64,000 nt of DNA from Faunimonas pinastri (GTDB lineage Bacteria > Pseudomonadota > Alphaproteobacteria > Rhizobiales > Afifellaceae): positions 248,001 through 312,000 of the forward strand of contig NZ_FOFG01000002.1 of assembly GCF_900110915.1 (NCBI RefSeq), read 5' to 3'. Numbering within the stretch: the stretch's first letter is position 1; each line of letters opens with the position of its first letter. Position numbers and translations under genes: made by a program. Positions 34,060 to 63,517 of the stretch are shown here, in pieces. A model generated the notes under the pieces. The model did not search any database. It saw only the letters and a program-made list of their open reading frames with translations, and had not been told where the DNA came from.

Positions 34060-34440
34060 TCAGGCGCGGATCGCTTCCAGCATCTTGGGATCGGCAGCTT
34101 TCAATTCCACGGACTCGCCGCAGCCACAGGCCGAGGTCTCGTTGGGATTGCGGAAGACGAAACCCGTGCGGAGCTTGGTCTGCTCGAAATCCATCTCGGT
34201 GCCGAGCAGGAACAGCGTCGCCGAGGGATCGACGAACACCTTGCCGCCCTCGAACTCGATCGCGTCGTCACCGGGCTTTGCCTCGGCCGCGAGATCGATG
34301 GTGTATTCCATGCCGGCGCAGCCGCCCTTGCGGATACCGAGCCGGAGCCCCTGGGCCCCGTCACTGGACTCGACGATCTCGCGGACCCGCTCGGCCGCGG
34401 CTTCGGTGACGGTCAGGATCTGAAACTTGCGAAGTGCCAT
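34060..34440 (-). CDS. sufA: SUF-associated A-type Fe-S carrier SufA
   Basis: 126-aa A-type scaffold/carrier. The cysteines lie in IRKGGCAGMEY (about residue 41) and SACGCGES near the C-terminus. It is the last gene of the suf operon, 45 nt after sufT. Distinct from the ErpA at 5747, which ends at CGCGTSFSI. Confidence 0.93.
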   Translation of the reverse strand: MALRKFQILTVTEAAAERVREIVESSDGAQGLRLGIRKGGCAGMEYTIDLAAEAKPGDDAIEFEGGKVFVDPSATLFLLGTEMDFEQTKLRTGFVFRNPNETSACGCGESVELKAADPKMLEAIRA

Positions 34441-34485: not shown

Positions 34486-34884
34486 TTACCACCAGCCGAG
34501 CGCGACCTTGGCTTCCTCGGACATGCGCTCCGGCGACCACGGCGGATCGAAGACGAGGTTTGCCTTGACGGCGGAAACGCCGGCTACGCCACCCACGGCG
34601 TCTTCCACCCATTGCGGCATCTCGCCGGCGACCGGGCAACCCGGCGCGGTTAGCGTCATGTCCACGGTGACGGAACGGCTGTCGTCGATATCGACCTTGT
34701 AGATCAGCCCGAGTTCATAGATGTCGGCCGGGATTTCCGGGTCGTAGACGCTCTTCAGCGCCGAAACGATATCGCCCGAAAGCCGCTCCAGCTCGTCGGC
34801 CGGGATCGTGGAAGCCTCGATGGAAGGCACGTTCGGTGCCTCGCCAGCGGTCTCTTCCTCGGTGTTTGCAGCGTTCTCGCTCAT
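34486..34884 (-). CDS. sufT: SUF system assembly protein SufT (MIP18/DUF59 family)
   Basis: 132-aa protein. After a Glu/Ala-rich 30-residue tail comes the MIP18 domain: DIVSALKSVYDPEIPADIYELGLIYKVDI...VDMTLTAPGCPVAGEMPQWVEDAV, with the DPEI and APGCP signatures. SufT helps Fe-S maturation in SUF-dependent bacteria. It lies 15 nt downstream of sufS. Confidence 0.92.
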   Translation of the reverse strand: MSENAANTEEETAGEAPNVPSIEASTIPADELERLSGDIVSALKSVYDPEIPADIYELGLIYKVDIDDSRSVTVDMTLTAPGCPVAGEMPQWVEDAVGGVAGVSAVKANLVFDPPWSPERMSEEAKVALGWW

Positions 34885-34899
34885 CGAAATCCTATTGCC

Positions 34900-36135
34900 T
34901 CAGGCAAAGAAAGAATGGGCCTTCTGGAGGGCGTTCGCAAGAGCGTCCACCTCGGCCATGGTGTTGTAGAGGCCGAACGAGGCACGGCAGGTGGAGGTCA
35001 CGCCGTAATGCGCGAGCAGCGGCTGCGCGCAATGAGTCCCGGCACGAACGGCCACGCCTTCCCGGTCGATGATGGTGGAAACGTCATGCGCATGCGCTCC
35101 CTCCATCTCGAAGGTGACGATGGCGCCCTTCTTCTCGGCATGGCCGAGAATGCGGATCGAGTTGATCGCGGAAAGGCGTTCATGGGCATAGCGGGCAAGC
35201 TCGCCCTCATGGGCGGCAATGGCCTCGCGGCCAAGCCCTTTCATGTAGCGGAGCGCCGCGGCCAGGCCGATCGCCTGCACGATCGGCGGGGTGCCGGCCT
35301 CGAAGCGCGCGGGAGGCGCTTCGTATGTGATCTCGTCCATCGTGACGGTGCGGATCATCTCGCCGCCGCCGAGGAAGGGCGGCATGCGCTCCAGAAGCTC
35401 GCGCTTCGCCCAGAGCACGCCGATGCCGGTGGGACCGTAGGTCTTGTGCCCGGTGAAGACGTAGAAGTCGCAGCCGAGTTCCTGCACGTCCACCGGCAGG
35501 TGAACCGCGGACTGGCTGCCGTCGACCAGCACCGGAATGCCGCGCTCGTGCGCGATGCGACATATGTCGCGGATCGGCACGATGGTGCCGGTCACGTTCG
35601 ACATATGCGTGATCGCGACGATCTTCGTGCGCTCCGTCAGCGCGGCCTTGAAGGCCTCGATGTCGAGCGACCCGTCCTCCAGGATCGGCACCCATTTCAG
35701 CACCGCGCCCCGGCGTTCCCGGTGGAAGTGCCACGGCACGATATTGGCGTGATGCTCCAGGATGGAGATGACGATCTCGTCGCCTTCCCCGATCACCAGT
35801 CCGCCGAAGGACTGCGCGACCAGGTTGATCGCCTCGGTGGAAGACTTGGTGAAGACGATCTCATCGCCGGACGGCGCGTTCAGGAAGGAACGGACTGCCT
35901 CGCGTGCATCCTCGTAGGCGTCCGTCGCGGCATTGGAGAGGTAATGCAGGCCGCGATGGACGTTGGAATAGGTCTCGGTATAGGCGCGCTGGATGGCGTC
36001 CAGAACGGCCCGGGGCTTCTGGGCGGAAGCGCCGTTGTCCAGATAGACAAGCGGCTTGCCGTAAACCTGCAGGGAAAGCGCGGGAAAGTCTTCCCGCACC
36101 TTCTCCACGTCATAGCCCGAGCCGTTGCCCGCCAT
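34900..36135 (-). CDS. sufS: cysteine desulfurase SufS
   Basis: 411-aa PLP enzyme, group II, that delivers sulfur for the SUF machinery. The PLP lysine lies in VFTGHKTYGPTGIGVLW, and the catalytic cysteine in VAVRAGTHCAQPLLAHYG. The DGSQSAVHLPVDV motif binds PLP. Start ATG 36135 shares one base with the sufD TGA (TGATG); the 23-codon upstream frame is discarded. No SufE or SufU gene is adjacent, though group II enzymes normally use such a partner. Confidence 0.95.
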   Translation of the reverse strand: MAGNGSGYDVEKVREDFPALSLQVYGKPLVYLDNGASAQKPRAVLDAIQRAYTETYSNVHRGLHYLSNAATDAYEDAREAVRSFLNAPSGDEIVFTKSSTEAINLVAQSFGGLVIGEGDEIVISILEHHANIVPWHFHRERRGAVLKWVPILEDGSLDIEAFKAALTERTKIVAITHMSNVTGTIVPIRDICRIAHERGIPVLVDGSQSAVHLPVDVQELGCDFYVFTGHKTYGPTGIGVLWAKRELLERMPPFLGGGEMIRTVTMDEITYEAPPARFEAGTPPIVQAIGLAAALRYMKGLGREAIAAHEGELARYAHERLSAINSIRILGHAEKKGAIVTFEMEGAHAHDVSTIIDREGVAVRAGTHCAQPLLAHYGVTSTCRASFGLYNTMAEVDALANALQKAHSFFA

Positions 36136-37469
36136 CACGTGGCCTCGCCCACCGTGACGGACGCGGGCGCACCCAGCGCGCGGCGGATGCGCTCGTCCAG
36201 GCACTCGGCCACCGCCTCATCACCGATCTCGGCGACGACCTCGGAAAGAAACGCCTGGATCAGCAGGCGCTCGGCCTCGCGCTTGTCCAGCCCACGCGAG
36301 CGCAGGAAGAACAGCATCTCTTCGTCAATCTGCCCGCAGGTCGCGCCGTGGCCGCAGACCACGTCGTCGGCGAAGATCTCCAGCTCCGGCTTGTTGGCGA
36401 ACTCCGCCTCCTCCGACAGGAGAAGCGCGCGGCTCATCATCTTGCCGTCGGTCTTCTGGGCGTGCTTGCGCACGATGATCTTGCCCTGGAAGACGCCATG
36501 CGCCTCGCCGTCGATGGCGGAGTTGAACTGCTCGCGGCTGGCGCAGTTCGGCACCGCGTGATCGACGACCAGCGTGTTGTCGATCAGCTGCTTGCCCTTG
36601 GCGACCGTCGCCCCGCGCAGCGATGCGGAAGAGCCTTCCGCATCGAAGGAAAGCCTCACCTCGTTGCGGGAAACCAGCGAGCCGGACGCGAGCGTGAACG
36701 GGTCGAAGGTGACGTCGTCGGCCAGGCGCGGCACGAGAAGGTTCAGGTGGATGGCGCAATCGCCCTCCTCCTGCGCGACGATCCAGCGGACCACGGCCTG
36801 AGCCTCGACCTGCACTTCGCTGACCACGTTGGTGTGGTAGGCGACCCCGTCGGGGCCGGAGAAGGTCTGCAGGATCGTGACTTCGGCGCCTTTGCCGACC
36901 ATCACCTGGTGGCGCATGGTCTGCAGACCCGGTTCGCTGCCGGCAAAGACGGACACGATCTCGAGCGGACGCGCGACCTTGGCGTCCTCCCGGATGCGAA
37001 GCGCCGCGCCGTCCCGCACGAACGCGCCGTTCAGCGCGAGGATCGGGCTTTCGGACGCGTCGAGTTGCGAGCGGCTGAGGAAGGAGCCGCCATCGGCCAG
37101 GAAACGATTGAGCGAGACGAATTCCACGTCGCCTTCGATCCCCTTGGTGTCGGAGAGAGAGGGCACGAAGAAGCCGTTGACGAAGACGATGCGCGCGGGC
37201 GCGAGCGGCGCGAAGACGTCGGCGCGCGCCAGGGCGTCCCGCGAGGCGTCGAACGCGGCCGGCTGGGCCGGAGCGGGCACGTCGCGGACCAGCGCGCGAA
37301 GATCGGTGTATTTCCAATCTTCCACGCGGCGATGCGGCAGGCCCTTCTCGAGAAAGGCATCGAAGGCGGCGTTGCGGATCTCGGCGGCGGCATCGTCGCT
37401 GGCGAGCGCCGCGAAGTGGTTCGCGAGCGCCTCCTCCGCCTTTGTGCGGATGCGAGTGGCTTCGGCCAT
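36135..37469 (-). CDS. sufD: Fe-S assembly scaffold protein SufD
   Basis: 444-aa beta-helix protein of the SufBCD scaffold. N-terminal KGLPHRRVEDWKYTDLRALV and the C-terminal DVVCGHGATCGQIDEEMLFFLRSRGLDKREAERLLIQAFLSEV (SufB/D signature) are clear. It lies 2 nt after sufC and overlaps sufS by 1 nt. Confidence 0.95.
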   Translation of the reverse strand: MAEATRIRTKAEEALANHFAALASDDAAAEIRNAAFDAFLEKGLPHRRVEDWKYTDLRALVRDVPAPAQPAAFDASRDALARADVFAPLAPARIVFVNGFFVPSLSDTKGIEGDVEFVSLNRFLADGGSFLSRSQLDASESPILALNGAFVRDGAALRIREDAKVARPLEIVSVFAGSEPGLQTMRHQVMVGKGAEVTILQTFSGPDGVAYHTNVVSEVQVEAQAVVRWIVAQEEGDCAIHLNLLVPRLADDVTFDPFTLASGSLVSRNEVRLSFDAEGSSASLRGATVAKGKQLIDNTLVVDHAVPNCASREQFNSAIDGEAHGVFQGKIIVRKHAQKTDGKMMSRALLLSEEAEFANKPELEIFADDVVCGHGATCGQIDEEMLFFLRSRGLDKREAERLLIQAFLSEVVAEIGDEAVAECLDERIRRALGAPASVTVGEAT

Positions 37470-37471
37470 GA

Positions 37472-38224
37472 TCAGGCGGCCTCCTCGCTGACGTAGTCGG
37501 CGTAGCCCTTGGCTTCCAGCTCCAGTGCCAGCTCCTTGCCGCCGGTGCGCACGATGCGGCCCTTGGACATGACATGCACCACGTCCGGCACGATGTGGTC
37601 GAGCAGGCGCTGATAGTGGGTGATGACGAGGAACGACCGCTCGGGCGAACGCAGCGCGTTCACGCCTTCAGAGACGATGCGGAGAGCGTCGATGTCGAGA
37701 CCGGAATCGGTTTCGTCCAGCACGCAGAGGCTCGGCGTCAGCAGCGCCATCTGCAGGATTTCCATGCGCTTCTTCTCACCGCCGGAGAAACCGACATTGA
37801 GCGGACGCTTCAGCATATCTTGAGACACCTTAAGCGTCTGTGCGGCTTCCTTCACGCGGCGCATGAAGTCCGGCGTGGTCAGTTCCGGCTCGCCGCGCGC
37901 CTTGCGCTGCGCGTTCATGGCGGTCTTCAGGAAGTTCATGGTCCCCACCCCGGGGATCTCGATCGGATACTGGAAGGCCAGGAACACGCCGGCGGCGGCG
38001 CGCGCATCCGGCTCCATTTCCAGGAGGTTCTCGCCGTTGAAGAGGATCTCGCCCTCGGTGATCTCGTAGTCCGACTTGCCGGCGAGGATATAGGAGAGCG
38101 TCGACTTGCCGGAACCGTTCGGCCCCATGATGGCGTGGACCTCGCCGTCCCGGATGGTCAGGTCGATGCCGCGGAGGATCTTCTGTCCCTCGACCTCGGC
38201 ATGCAGGTTCTTGATCTCGAGCAT
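37472..38224 (-). CDS. sufC: Fe-S assembly ATPase SufC
   Basis: 250-aa ABC-type ATPase driving SufBCD. Walker [18 protein letters not shown], signature [14 protein letters not shown], Walker [17 protein letters not shown] (Glu-Thr-Asp variant typical of SufC) and switch [11 protein letters not shown]. It lies 38 nt after sufB and 2 nt before sufD. Confidence 0.97.
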
Positions 38225-38262: not shown

Positions 38263-39783
38263 TCAGCCCACGCTGCCCTCAAGGCTGATGCCGATCAGAC
38301 GCTGCGTCTCGGCCATGAATTCCATCGGGAGCTTCTGCAGCACGTCGCGGACAAAGCCGTTGACGATGAGGGCCACCGCCTCTTCCTGGCTCATGCCGCG
38401 CTGCAGGCAGTAGAACATCTGGTCGTCGGAGATCTTCGAGGTCGTCGCCTCGTGCTCGAAGACGGCGGACGCGTTCTTGCTCTCGATATAGGGGATCGTG
38501 TGGGCGCCGCACTGATCGCCGATCAGCAGAGAGTCGCACTGGGTGAAGTTGCGCGCGCCGCTCGCCCGGCGATTGGCCGAGACCAGGCCGCGATAGGTGT
38601 TGTCGGACCGCCCAGCAGCGATGCCCTTGGAGATGATGCGGCTCGACGTGTTCTTGCCGAGGTGGATCATCTTGGTGCCGGAATCGACCTGCTGGCGGCC
38701 GTTGGAGATGGCGATGGAGTAGAACTCGCCCTGGCTGTTGTCCCCGCGCAGGATGCAGGACGGGTACTTCCAGGTGATCGCGGAGCCGGTTTCCACCTGC
38801 GTCCACGAAATCTTGGAGTTGCGGCCACGGCAATCGCCACGCTTGGTGACGAAGTTGTAGACGCCGCCCTTGCCCTCGGGATCGCCCGGATACCAGTTCT
38901 GGACGGTGGAGTACTTGATCTCCGCATCGTCCAGCGCGACCAGCTCGACGACCGCCGCATGCAGCTGGTTCTCGTCGCGCATCGGCGCGGTGCAGCCTTC
39001 GAGATAGCTCACGTAGGAGCCCTCGTCGGCGATCACCAGCGTGCGTTCGAACTGGCCCGTGTTCCGCTCGTTGATGCGGAAATAGGTGGACAGCTCCATC
39101 GGGCAGCGAACGCCCTTGGGGATGTAGACGAAGGAACCGTCGGAGAAGACCGCGGAATTCAGCGTCGCGAAATAGTTGTCGCTCGCCGGAACGACGGTGC
39201 CGAGATACTTGCGGACGAGATCCGGGTACTCGCGGATCGCCTCGGAGATCGGCATGAAAATCACGCCGGCCTTCGCGAGTTCCTTCTTGAAGGTCGTGAC
39301 CACGGAAACCGAATCGAAGACGGCATCGACGGCCACGCGGCCGGACGCATATTCGCCACCCGGGGCCTCTTCCAGCACGTCGCCGCCATCGGGCTTGCGA
39401 ATGCCGGCCAGGATCTCCTGCTCCTTGAGCGGAATGCCGAGCTTGGCGTAGGTCTTCAGGATCTCCGGATCGATTTCGTCAAGGCTCGTCGCCGTCGCGC
39501 GCAGCTTGGGCGCCGCGTAATAATGCAGATCCTGATAGTCGATCTTGGGATAGTCGACGCGCGCCCAGGTCGGCTCTTCCATGGTCAGCCAGCGGCGGAA
39601 GGCGGCAAGGCGCCATTCCAGCATCCAATCCGGCTCGCCCTTCTTGGCGGAGATCAGGCGAACGATGTCCTCGTTCAGGCCCTTCGGCGCCAGATCGGAC
39701 TCCACGTCCGTGATGAAGCCGTACTTGTACTTGTCCACGTCGAGCAGCTTGACCTGCTCGATTGTCTCCTGAACCGCGGGCAT
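38263..39783 (-). CDS. sufB: Fe-S assembly scaffold protein SufB
   Basis: 506-aa scaffold subunit. Family segments include [19 protein letters not shown], the [25 protein letters not shown] region, [45 protein letters not shown], and the C-terminal SRGMSQEEA-type stretch ([17 protein letters not shown]). It starts 15 nt after the first desulfurase gene. Confidence 0.97.
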
Positions 39784-39798
39784 GAACGTCTCCTACTC

Positions 39799-40962
39799 CT
39801 ATGCGGCGCGGCCCTGCCGGAGGCGCGGATAGATCTCGCGCCACGCCGCAATAAAACGATGAATATCAGCCCGGCTCGCATCAACGCAGAGGCTGACGCG
39901 GATTCCGGACCGTGCGAGGTCGAAGGGAAGACCCATCGCCTCCAGAACGTGGCTGGCCGCCACCTTGCCCGATGAACAGGCCGAACCTGCCGAAACGGCG
40001 ATGCCCTGCAGGTCGAACGCGATCACGGCCGTTTCGGCTGCAACGCCCGGCACGACAAACAGCGTCGTGTTCGGGAGCCGCGCCAGGTCGCGACCCATGA
40101 TGCCGATCTCCGGAGAGATCTCGATCAAACCCGCTTCGAGTTCATCACGCAGACGAGCAAGCTCGCCAACGCTGTTTAGATATATTCCAAACAGCTCCGC
40201 CGCAATCCCAAACCCGACAATACCAGTCACGTTTTCAGTGCCTGCGCGTTTATAACGCTCCTGTCCACCGCCACGAAGCAGCGACGCCGGCCGAAGGTCT
40301 TCGGATGCGGAAACCAGCGCCCCCACGCCCTGTGGCCCACCCAGTTTGTGGGCGGAGAGCGACAGGAAATCCACGCCGAGTTCGTCGATGGAGAACGGAA
40401 TTCGCCCCGCGGCCTGGACCGCGTCGCAGAAGACAAAGCCGCCGTGCGACTTGACGATCCGCGCCGCCTCCGACACGGGGTTGACGATGCCGGTCTCGTT
40501 GTTGGCGAGCATGAGGGCGACGAGTGGCGCGCCGGTCGCGTAATCGTGCGCGGCAAGACGGGCTTCCAGCGTATCCAGATCGATTCGCCCGTCGGCTCGA
40601 GCCGGGAGGCGTTCCACATCCTCGGGGGCGAAGCGGCCGCCCGCCAGCACGCAGGGATGCTCCGTCGCGCCGACATACAGCCGGCCGAGCCGCACCGTCT
40701 CGGATCCACGGGAGAGCGTCGGAGAGAGCGCCAGCACCGCCGCCTCGGTGGCGCCGCTGGTGAAGGTCACGCCCTCCGTCCGGGCCCCGACAAGCGCCGC
40801 GACCTGTCCCCGCGCCCTTTCCACCAGCCCGCGCGCGCGACGGCCTTCGGAATGCACGGACGACGGATTGGAGGCCAGCGACAGCGTCTCGACCAGGGAA
40901 TCACGCACCTCGCGCAGCAGCGGCGCTCCGGCATTGGCGTCCATGTAGATGCGCTGAGGCAT
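39799..40962 (-). CDS. cysteine desulfurase, IscS/NifS class, first gene of the suf operon
   Basis: 387-aa PLP enzyme of group I, distinct from SufS. MDANAGAPLLREVRDSL begins the domain; the PLP Lys lies in SLSAHKLGGPQGVGAL and the active Cys in VSAGSACSSGKVAASHVLEAMG. ALMLANNETGIVNPV is the cofactor-contacting motif. Rhizobial suf operons often carry this second desulfurase. It heads the operon, 15 nt before sufB, with an Irr-like dyad about 95 nt upstream. No IscR or IscU gene is adjacent. Confidence 0.92.
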   Translation of the reverse strand: MPQRIYMDANAGAPLLREVRDSLVETLSLASNPSSVHSEGRRARGLVERARGQVAALVGARTEGVTFTSGATEAAVLALSPTLSRGSETVRLGRLYVGATEHPCVLAGGRFAPEDVERLPARADGRIDLDTLEARLAAHDYATGAPLVALMLANNETGIVNPVSEAARIVKSHGGFVFCDAVQAAGRIPFSIDELGVDFLSLSAHKLGGPQGVGALVSASEDLRPASLLRGGGQERYKRAGTENVTGIVGFGIAAELFGIYLNSVGELARLRDELEAGLIEISPEIGIMGRDLARLPNTTLFVVPGVAAETAVIAFDLQGIAVSAGSACSSGKVAASHVLEAMGLPFDLARSGIRVSLCVDASRADIHRFIAAWREIYPRLRQGRAA

Positions 40963-41054
40963 GCGGGCCGACCCCTAAGTCACGGAATCCTTGAAATTCG
41001 GCAGGCAGATGGTGTTTAGATCGCGCCCGCTACACTGTCCGGGCCGCGGCCAAC

Positions 41055-41078
41055 TTTTGAACCATTCAAAACTGGTTC
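41055..41078. promoter_or_regulatory. Irr/ICE-like dyad between suf operon and alpha/beta hydrolase
   Basis: Perfect 17-bp inverted repeat TTTTGAA-CCA-TTCAAAA (41055-41071). It has the 7-3-7 layout of the rhizobial ICE box (TTTAGAA-N3-TTCTAAA), with one substitution per arm. Overlapping it is a second dyad GAACCA-N8-TGGTTC (41059-41078). A plus-strand promoter is possible: TTGAAC (41057) with a 16-nt spacer to TAGGAA (41079). Confidence 0.6.
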
Positions 41079-41155
41079 TAGGAACGGCCCCGGAAGGTGT
41101 CAAGGAACGCGCATACGCCTCAACAGGCCTGTGCAGGAAGACGGGACAGGATTTA

Positions 41156-41812
41156 ATGCCGGAAGTGATTTTTGCCGGACCGGACGGTCGGCTCGAAGGG
41201 CGCTATCAGCCTTCGAAGGAGAAGACCGCGCCCATCGCACTGGTCCTGCATCCCCATCCCCGCTTCGGCGGCACGATGAACAACCAGATCGTCTACCGGC
41301 TCTTCTACATGTTCCAGGAGCGCGGCTTCACCTGCCTGCGCTTCAATTTCCGGGGCGTCGGCCGCAGCCAGGGCTTCTTCGACCATGGCATGGGCGAGCT
41401 TTCCGACGCCGCTTCGGCGCTGGACTGGATCCAGACCCTGCACCCGGATTCGCGCGGCGTGTGGATCGCCGGCTTCTCCTTCGGCGCCTGGATCGGCATG
41501 CAGCTCCTGATGCGCCGTCCGGAAGTGGAGGGCTTCATGTCGATCGCCCCGCAGCCGAACCTCTACGACTTCTCGTTCCTCGCCCCCTGCCCCTCCTCCG
41601 GCCTGATCGTCAACGGCACGCAGGACAAGGTGGCGCCGCCGGAAGCGGTGCAGGGTCTCGTCGACAAACTGAAGACGCAGAAGGGCATCATCATCGATCA
41701 CGCCAAGATCGAGGGTGCCAACCACTTCTTCGAAAGCAAGTCGGACGAACTGATCGGCACCTGCTCCGATTACCTCGACATGCGCCTGGCCAAGCTGGAC
41801 CGTCAGCGCTGA
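41156..41812 (+). CDS. alpha/beta hydrolase (COG2945-like)
   Basis: 218-aa serine-hydrolase-fold protein. The oxyanion segment is LVLHPHPRFGGTMNNQIVYRLF, the nucleophile elbow WIAGFSFGAWIGM (GxSxG as GFSFG), and the late Asp and His are NGTQDKVAPPE and EGANHFFESK. The substrate is unknown. Start ATG 41156 follows ACAGGA. It is divergent from suf across the shared dyad and overlaps anmK by 10 bp at their 3' ends. Confidence 0.87.
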   Translation: MPEVIFAGPDGRLEGRYQPSKEKTAPIALVLHPHPRFGGTMNNQIVYRLFYMFQERGFTCLRFNFRGVGRSQGFFDHGMGELSDAASALDWIQTLHPDSRGVWIAGFSFGAWIGMQLLMRRPEVEGFMSIAPQPNLYDFSFLAPCPSSGLIVNGTQDKVAPPEAVQGLVDKLKTQKGIIIDHAKIEGANHFFESKSDELIGTCSDYLDMRLAKLDRQR

Positions 41813-63387: not shown

Positions 63388-63489
63388 CGTGATCTCTCCA
63401 TGGACGGCTACTGAGCGCTCGCACCGGCATCCGGCGCAAGGAACGACCCTCAGGAAGAGGGCCGTCATGCTGATCGCGAGGCTATGGAG

Positions 63490-63517
63490 AGCTTATTTTA
63501 GAATTAGTCTAAGTCAA
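63490..63517 (-). promoter_or_regulatory. katA promoter with Irr/ICE-like box
   Basis: On the minus strand: TTGACT (63517-63512), 16-nt spacer, TAAGCT (63495-63490). The spacer and -35 contain, on the plus strand, TTTAGAA-TTA-GTCTAAG (63497-63513): the ICE left arm is exact and the right arm matches 5 of 7. Confidence 0.5.

Follow-up and report, generated by a model that had tools for sequence, protein, structure and literature searches.

A predicted Irr operator at the suf promoter of Faunimonas pinastri, facing a conserved divergent hydrolase promoter

Introduction

Control of the suf genes for Fe-S cluster assembly by iron regulators has been described in several relatives of the organism considered here. 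In Rhizobium leguminosarum both RirA and Irr are stated to regulate the Suf system (PMC5863699). In a separate study, suf genes were more expressed in an irr mutant (PMC3413700). The arrangement closest to ours is that of Rhodobacter sphaeroides, where an Irr box is predicted from -13 to +1 of P2, the main isc-suf promoter (PMC6956336); for Rhodobacter, PMC6956336 cites Rodionov et al. 2006 as having predicted an Irr box at the isc-suf promoter. A divergent hydrolase gene, RSP_0444, is read there from an antisense promoter, P5, and the position of this gene beside isc-suf is conserved in Rhodobacteraceae and Rhizobiaceae (PMC6956336). P5 is insensitive to iron and to the absence of Irr, is repressed by OxyR and stimulates P2, while Irr in vitro left P2 unbound and bound the internal promoter P3 inside iscS (PMC6956336).

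Here, we analyzed a stretch of 64,000 nucleotides from Faunimonas pinastri (hereafter the window), in which a suf operon and a divergent alpha/beta hydrolase gene are separated by a short spacer carrying a perfect palindrome. Compared with the suf Irr boxes, or iron control elements (ICE), of Rhizobiales, the site has the same palindrome layout, consensus, operon and promoter position, whereas its arms read TTTTGAA/TTCAAAA and no IRO box lies over its -35. With P2/P5 of R. sphaeroides it shares an Irr box around the main promoter, the divergent hydrolase and an antisense promoter just downstream (PMC6956336). In R. sphaeroides, however, the operon begins with iscR and its promoter carries an IscR box at -36 to -19, while the window is without iscR at that place; moreover, P2 was left unbound by R. 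sphaeroides Irr in vitro. A first-pass annotation of this DNA had suspected that an iron link between suf and the hydrolase was undescribed. This was wrong, as the layout is in PMC6956336 and the control of Suf by Irr is in PMC5863699. The link between Irr and suf and the layout are already known in related bacteria, and what we describe is an operator of a known kind in a new organism.

Materials and methods

The comparison set consisted of 150 genomes of the order (Rhizobiales) and 80 named genomes, from which the divergent suf/hydrolase spacers were taken. A position matrix was seeded from the host's family and refined de novo over the order sample, with the window excluded, giving 84 sites. 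Features of the window are collected in Table 1.

Table 1. Features of the window discussed in the text, with window coordinates and the evidence for each.
Feature	Position	Strand	Evidence or remark
SufA-type Fe-S carrier	34060..34440	-	PF01521
Fe-S assembly protein, SufT-like	34486..34884	-	PF01883
sufS cysteine desulfurase	34900..36135	-	NCBIfam sufS, 587 bits
sufD	36135..37469	-	SUFBD_core
sufC (ABC ATPase)	37472..38224	-	Profile search and operon position
sufB	38263..39783	-	NCBIfam SufB equivalog, 900.8 bits
First suf gene, NifS/IscS-type cysteine desulfurase (SufS2-like)	39799..40962	-	Profile searches
Second Irr-like site, TTTAGATATATTCCAAA	40175..40191		Score 20.3; inside first suf gene
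Inferred hydrolase promoter -35, TTGAAA	40991..40996	+	CTTGxAW-type motif (CTTGAAA 40990-40996), 129/152 loci
Inferred hydrolase promoter -10 (weak), TTTAGA	41015..41020	+	Same register in listed family members
Predicted Irr box (iron control element)	41055..41071		Matrix score 28.0/34.1, window left out of training
Predicted suf promoter -10, TAGAAC	41075..41080	-	TAnAAC-like hexamer at same register, 117 loci
Predicted suf promoter -35, TTGACA	41098..41103	-	TTGAC at most 60 nt upstream of box in 166/167 box loci
Alpha/beta hydrolase (COG2945-like)	41156..41812	+	Pfam alpha/beta hydrolase families
Irr-like site, TTTAGAATTAGTCTAAG	63497..63513		Score 21.3; upstream of catalase (HPII-like) gene, minus strand

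Results

A conserved palindrome between suf and the hydrolase

The suf operon occupies the minus strand from 40962 down to 34060. In the spacer upstream of it, at 41055-41071, lies TTTTGAACCATTCAAAA, a perfect 7-3-7 inverted repeat (TTTTGAA-CCA-TTCAAAA), exactly as the first-pass annotation had read the 17-bp dyad between suf and the hydrolase. The suf operon begins with an ATG at 40962 on the minus strand, 92 nt away, and the hydrolase with one at 41156 on the plus strand, 84 nt away; both distances are near the figures of about 95 and 85 nt given in that annotation. Allowing up to three mismatches, the dyad pattern is found twice in the 64-kb window against an expectation of 0.34, and the dyad is the sole exact match; a search of the complete 4.2-Mb genome for TTTNGAANNNTTCNAAA gave no other exact match, and none at all for the reversed control pattern.

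The de novo consensus from the suf/hydrolase spacers of relatives is TTTAGAATAATTCTAAA (84 sites). We take this consensus to be the Irr iron control element as generally known. Scored with the matrix trained on these relatives, the left-out site of the window reaches 28.0 of a possible 34.1, a high score against the 99.9% point of 14.6 of a null made by simple base shuffles of the spacers. Its arms nevertheless depart from the TTTAGAA/TTCTAAA of the ICE, and the T at position 4 of the left arm, taken in the suf direction, is found in 0 of the 84 training sites in that orientation. The comparison with relatives shows the dyad kept in place: a box is present in 93 of the 129 order-sample loci with suf adjoining the hydrolase (34 of 46 families), and 73 of the 80 named genomes have it, including Rhizobium, Agrobacterium, Ensifer and Mesorhizobium. 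The one finding that would suit a chance palindrome without function is that loose matches to the pattern (up to two mismatches) barely exceed the reversed control genome-wide, at 38 versus 29. Against this, the register is nearly fixed over 34 families and the score greatly exceeds the null, leaving chance a negligible probability; the dyad is real.

There are several lineages in which Irr and suf are kept and the box is absent. The spacers of five such loci (L047, L051, L055, L056 and L065), in genomes that encode Irr, carry a TTGAC...CCTAGAA promoter-like sequence without an Irr box, and another control may have taken the place of the box there. In Brucella, Falsochrobactrum and a near relative (L219, L229, L231 and L272) the suf box is broken, e.g. 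TCTAGAACCGGTTTGAA, with the TTGAC element kept, which suggests a lineage-specific shift of suf control.

Position of the box at the suf promoter

Read toward suf, the spacer runs TTGACA (41103-41098), N17, TAGAAC (41080-41075), CAG and then the box. The two hexamers, with a 17-nt spacer between them and the second lying 3 nt before the box, have the form of a -35 and a -10, and across the 167 box loci TTGAC mostly stands 32-33 nt before the box. Since the box directly follows the conserved -10, it covers the likely suf start point, predicted near 41066-41069 on the minus strand, and spans about -3 to +14 of it. A box in this position fits repression by Irr (PMC3413700). A strict E. coli-type promoter scan found no match at the suf promoter because the -10, TAGAAC, is without the final T that the scan demands. 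An Irr box is thus found at the promoter of iron-related genes, the suf promoter being itself known by sequence only. Motif, conservation and promoter register together back the assignment, already made in the first-pass annotation, of an Irr/ICE-type site belonging to the suf promoter. We put the probability that the dyad is the Irr operator of the suf operon, predicted to repress suf at low iron, at roughly 88%.

Other regulators at the same spacer

Overlapping the box is a second dyad, GAACCA (41059-41064)-N8-TGGTTC (41073-41078), which had been proposed to mark a second regulator in competition with the first. A regulator of RirA or IscR type binding here against Irr would have precedents, as both act on suf promoters of relatives (PMC5863699, PMC6956336), and the host genome carries a RirA-like Rrf2 gene. 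The dyad, however, is not conserved even within the host's family: in the 166 other boxes its arms are complementary at five of six positions in 2 loci and at all six in none. The IRO layout of RirA, TGA-N9-TCA, is absent from the suf promoter of the window and from those of its ten relatives in the family. We therefore reject the second dyad as a site for RirA, IscR or another regulator, and read it as the -10 hexamer meeting the box; competition of this kind is very improbable.

Outside the host's family, TGA-N9-TCA lies close to the suf -35 in about 50 other loci; in dozens of Rhizobiaceae loci (L204-L213, for example) it overlaps the -35, some 32 nt before the box. In those Rhizobiaceae, the sequences point to a likely dual control of suf.

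Other readers of palindromes were also considered, namely the alphaproteobacterial LexA (GTTC-N7-GTTC) and FNR (TTGA-N6-TCAA). Two relatives (L010 and L011) do have GAAC-N7-GAAC at the promoter, as the LexA reading would have it, but the LexA layout is limited to these 2 of 167 loci and the FNR layout to 4 of 167, and neither occurs exactly in the window, which has TTGA-N5-TCAA where an FNR box has TTGA-N6-TCAA. Both readings were dropped for reasons of spacing and conservation, and an operator of either kind is even less probable than a second regulator of RirA or IscR type. The Irr operator is the reading we carry forward.

Irr and other Irr-like sites in the genome

A search for Irr relatives was positive in 147 of the 150 order-sample genomes. 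The Irr of the host clears the NCBIfam cut-offs for both Irr (194.1, cut-off 170) and IrrA (206.7, cut-off 150) and keeps an HHH motif. Of the three genomes in which Irr was not detected, two (G075 and G112) are also without the box, and the third, a 550-contig draft (G055), has it.

When the suf-trained matrix was applied genome-wide to candidates from a pattern search with at most two mismatches, the top matches beyond the suf operon lay upstream of a catalase (21.3), a bacterioferritin (19.3) and a RirA-like Rrf2 gene (18.6), followed by sites upstream of a Rieske oxygenase (18.3), a formate dehydrogenase (17.8) and a second catalase (14.8). The genes behind these six sites are all iron proteins or an iron regulator. 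Two further Irr-like sites score in the same range: one at 16.4 (L090) has no nameable iron gene beside it, and one at 15.4 (L093) is near a CoxG-like gene.

Some details of these genes are recorded here as side observations. For the catalase next to the site at 63497-63513, the first ATG is at 63468 and the true start may be some 80 nt further in. The RirA-like Rrf2 regulator (L083:833-1321) has its Irr-like site at 1352-1368, about 30 nt upstream; the protein scores 148 bits on the NCBIfam RirA model, under the cut-off of 193, and appears to be without the third cluster cysteine of RirA. The formate dehydrogenase alpha subunit (L097:1647-4700), with its Irr-like site about 60 nt upstream, has an in-frame TGA at codon 200 in a VUHG context, probably encoding selenocysteine.

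An internal Irr-like site in the suf operon

A second Irr-like site lies within the first suf gene (Table 1). Synonymous resampling of that gene, repeated 5000 times, never reached the score of TTTAGATATATTCCAAA, and the site is built on codons that are rare, ATA (1.6% of Ile codons) and CTA (0.6% of Leu codons). It is not conserved in the 112 other desulfurase genes scanned, all from outside the host genus, in which the next best score was 5.1. The nearest known parallel is P3 of R. sphaeroides (PMC6956336), likewise within the operon's first cysteine desulfurase gene; P3, however, is bound by Irr, whereas the internal site of the window is a prediction and is absent from those 112 genes. It is a tentative idea, and one we hold to be rather unlikely, that Irr acts on suf through a pair of operators, the promoter box and, about 880 bp away, the rare-codon site in the first gene. 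Looping, a roadblock or the gating of an internal promoter, as at Rhodobacter P3, would be possible means, and if the idea were true, the leading cysteine desulfurase gene would differ in its iron response from the genes that follow it. This internal site is the one part of the locus that a specialist might not expect.

The divergent hydrolase

The hydrolase is 71-88% identical in the aligned relatives. Its -35 motif, found in 129 of 152 loci as compared with 10 for the reversed and 39 for the complement control, precedes the box by 68 nt (median). The predicted start is at about 41027, which would place the box at about +28 to +44 of the hydrolase transcript. As judged by conserved sequence only, the hydrolase promoter lies on the opposite strand within the suf leader, as in the P2/P5 layout; the suf and hydrolase promoters point toward one another, with overlapping leaders.

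This geometry would suit a shared operator, at which Irr would control both suf and the hydrolase, in the latter case by blocking polymerase some 30 nt past the hydrolase start. The hydrolase promoter is on the far side of the box, the transcript must cross the box, and the hydrolase adjoins suf in most loci. The comparison across loci speaks otherwise, as a box is found in 1 of the 9 order-sample loci where suf was not found within reach of the hydrolase and, by eye, a similar hydrolase promoter motif remains in some loci without a box. P5 of R. sphaeroides, unresponsive to iron or Irr loss and controlled by OxyR (PMC6956336), also stands against it. Shared control by Irr seems unlikely to us, slightly more so than the two-operator arrangement. 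A dedicated Irr box for the hydrolase is disfavored, as most loci where suf does not adjoin the hydrolase have no box; the occurrence of the box tracks that of suf and not that of the hydrolase. The hydrolase is unlikely to be a dedicated target of Irr. That iron controls the hydrolase is unproven, and the result was negative in R. sphaeroides, the one organism tested.

Discussion

The preferred reading, an Irr operator of the suf operon, can be put as a simple scheme. The data show the site itself, its conserved spacing to a promoter-like element, an irr gene in the genome and further occurrences of the motif at iron genes; that Irr binds the box, that it represses suf and which way suf responds to iron is what we infer. 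When iron and haem are scarce, Irr would bind the box over the predicted suf start and Fe-S cluster assembly would be repressed; when haem is plentiful, Irr would let go and suf would be transcribed. The hydrolase promoter within the suf leader would fire the opposite way through the box, and the hydrolase may feel Irr as a roadblock or by interplay between the promoters.

The suf Irr box leaves the known picture unchanged. What the comparison adds is a box locked in register to the suf promoter and facing a conserved hydrolase promoter, and it supports the view that control of Fe-S assembly by Irr is old and widespread in the order.
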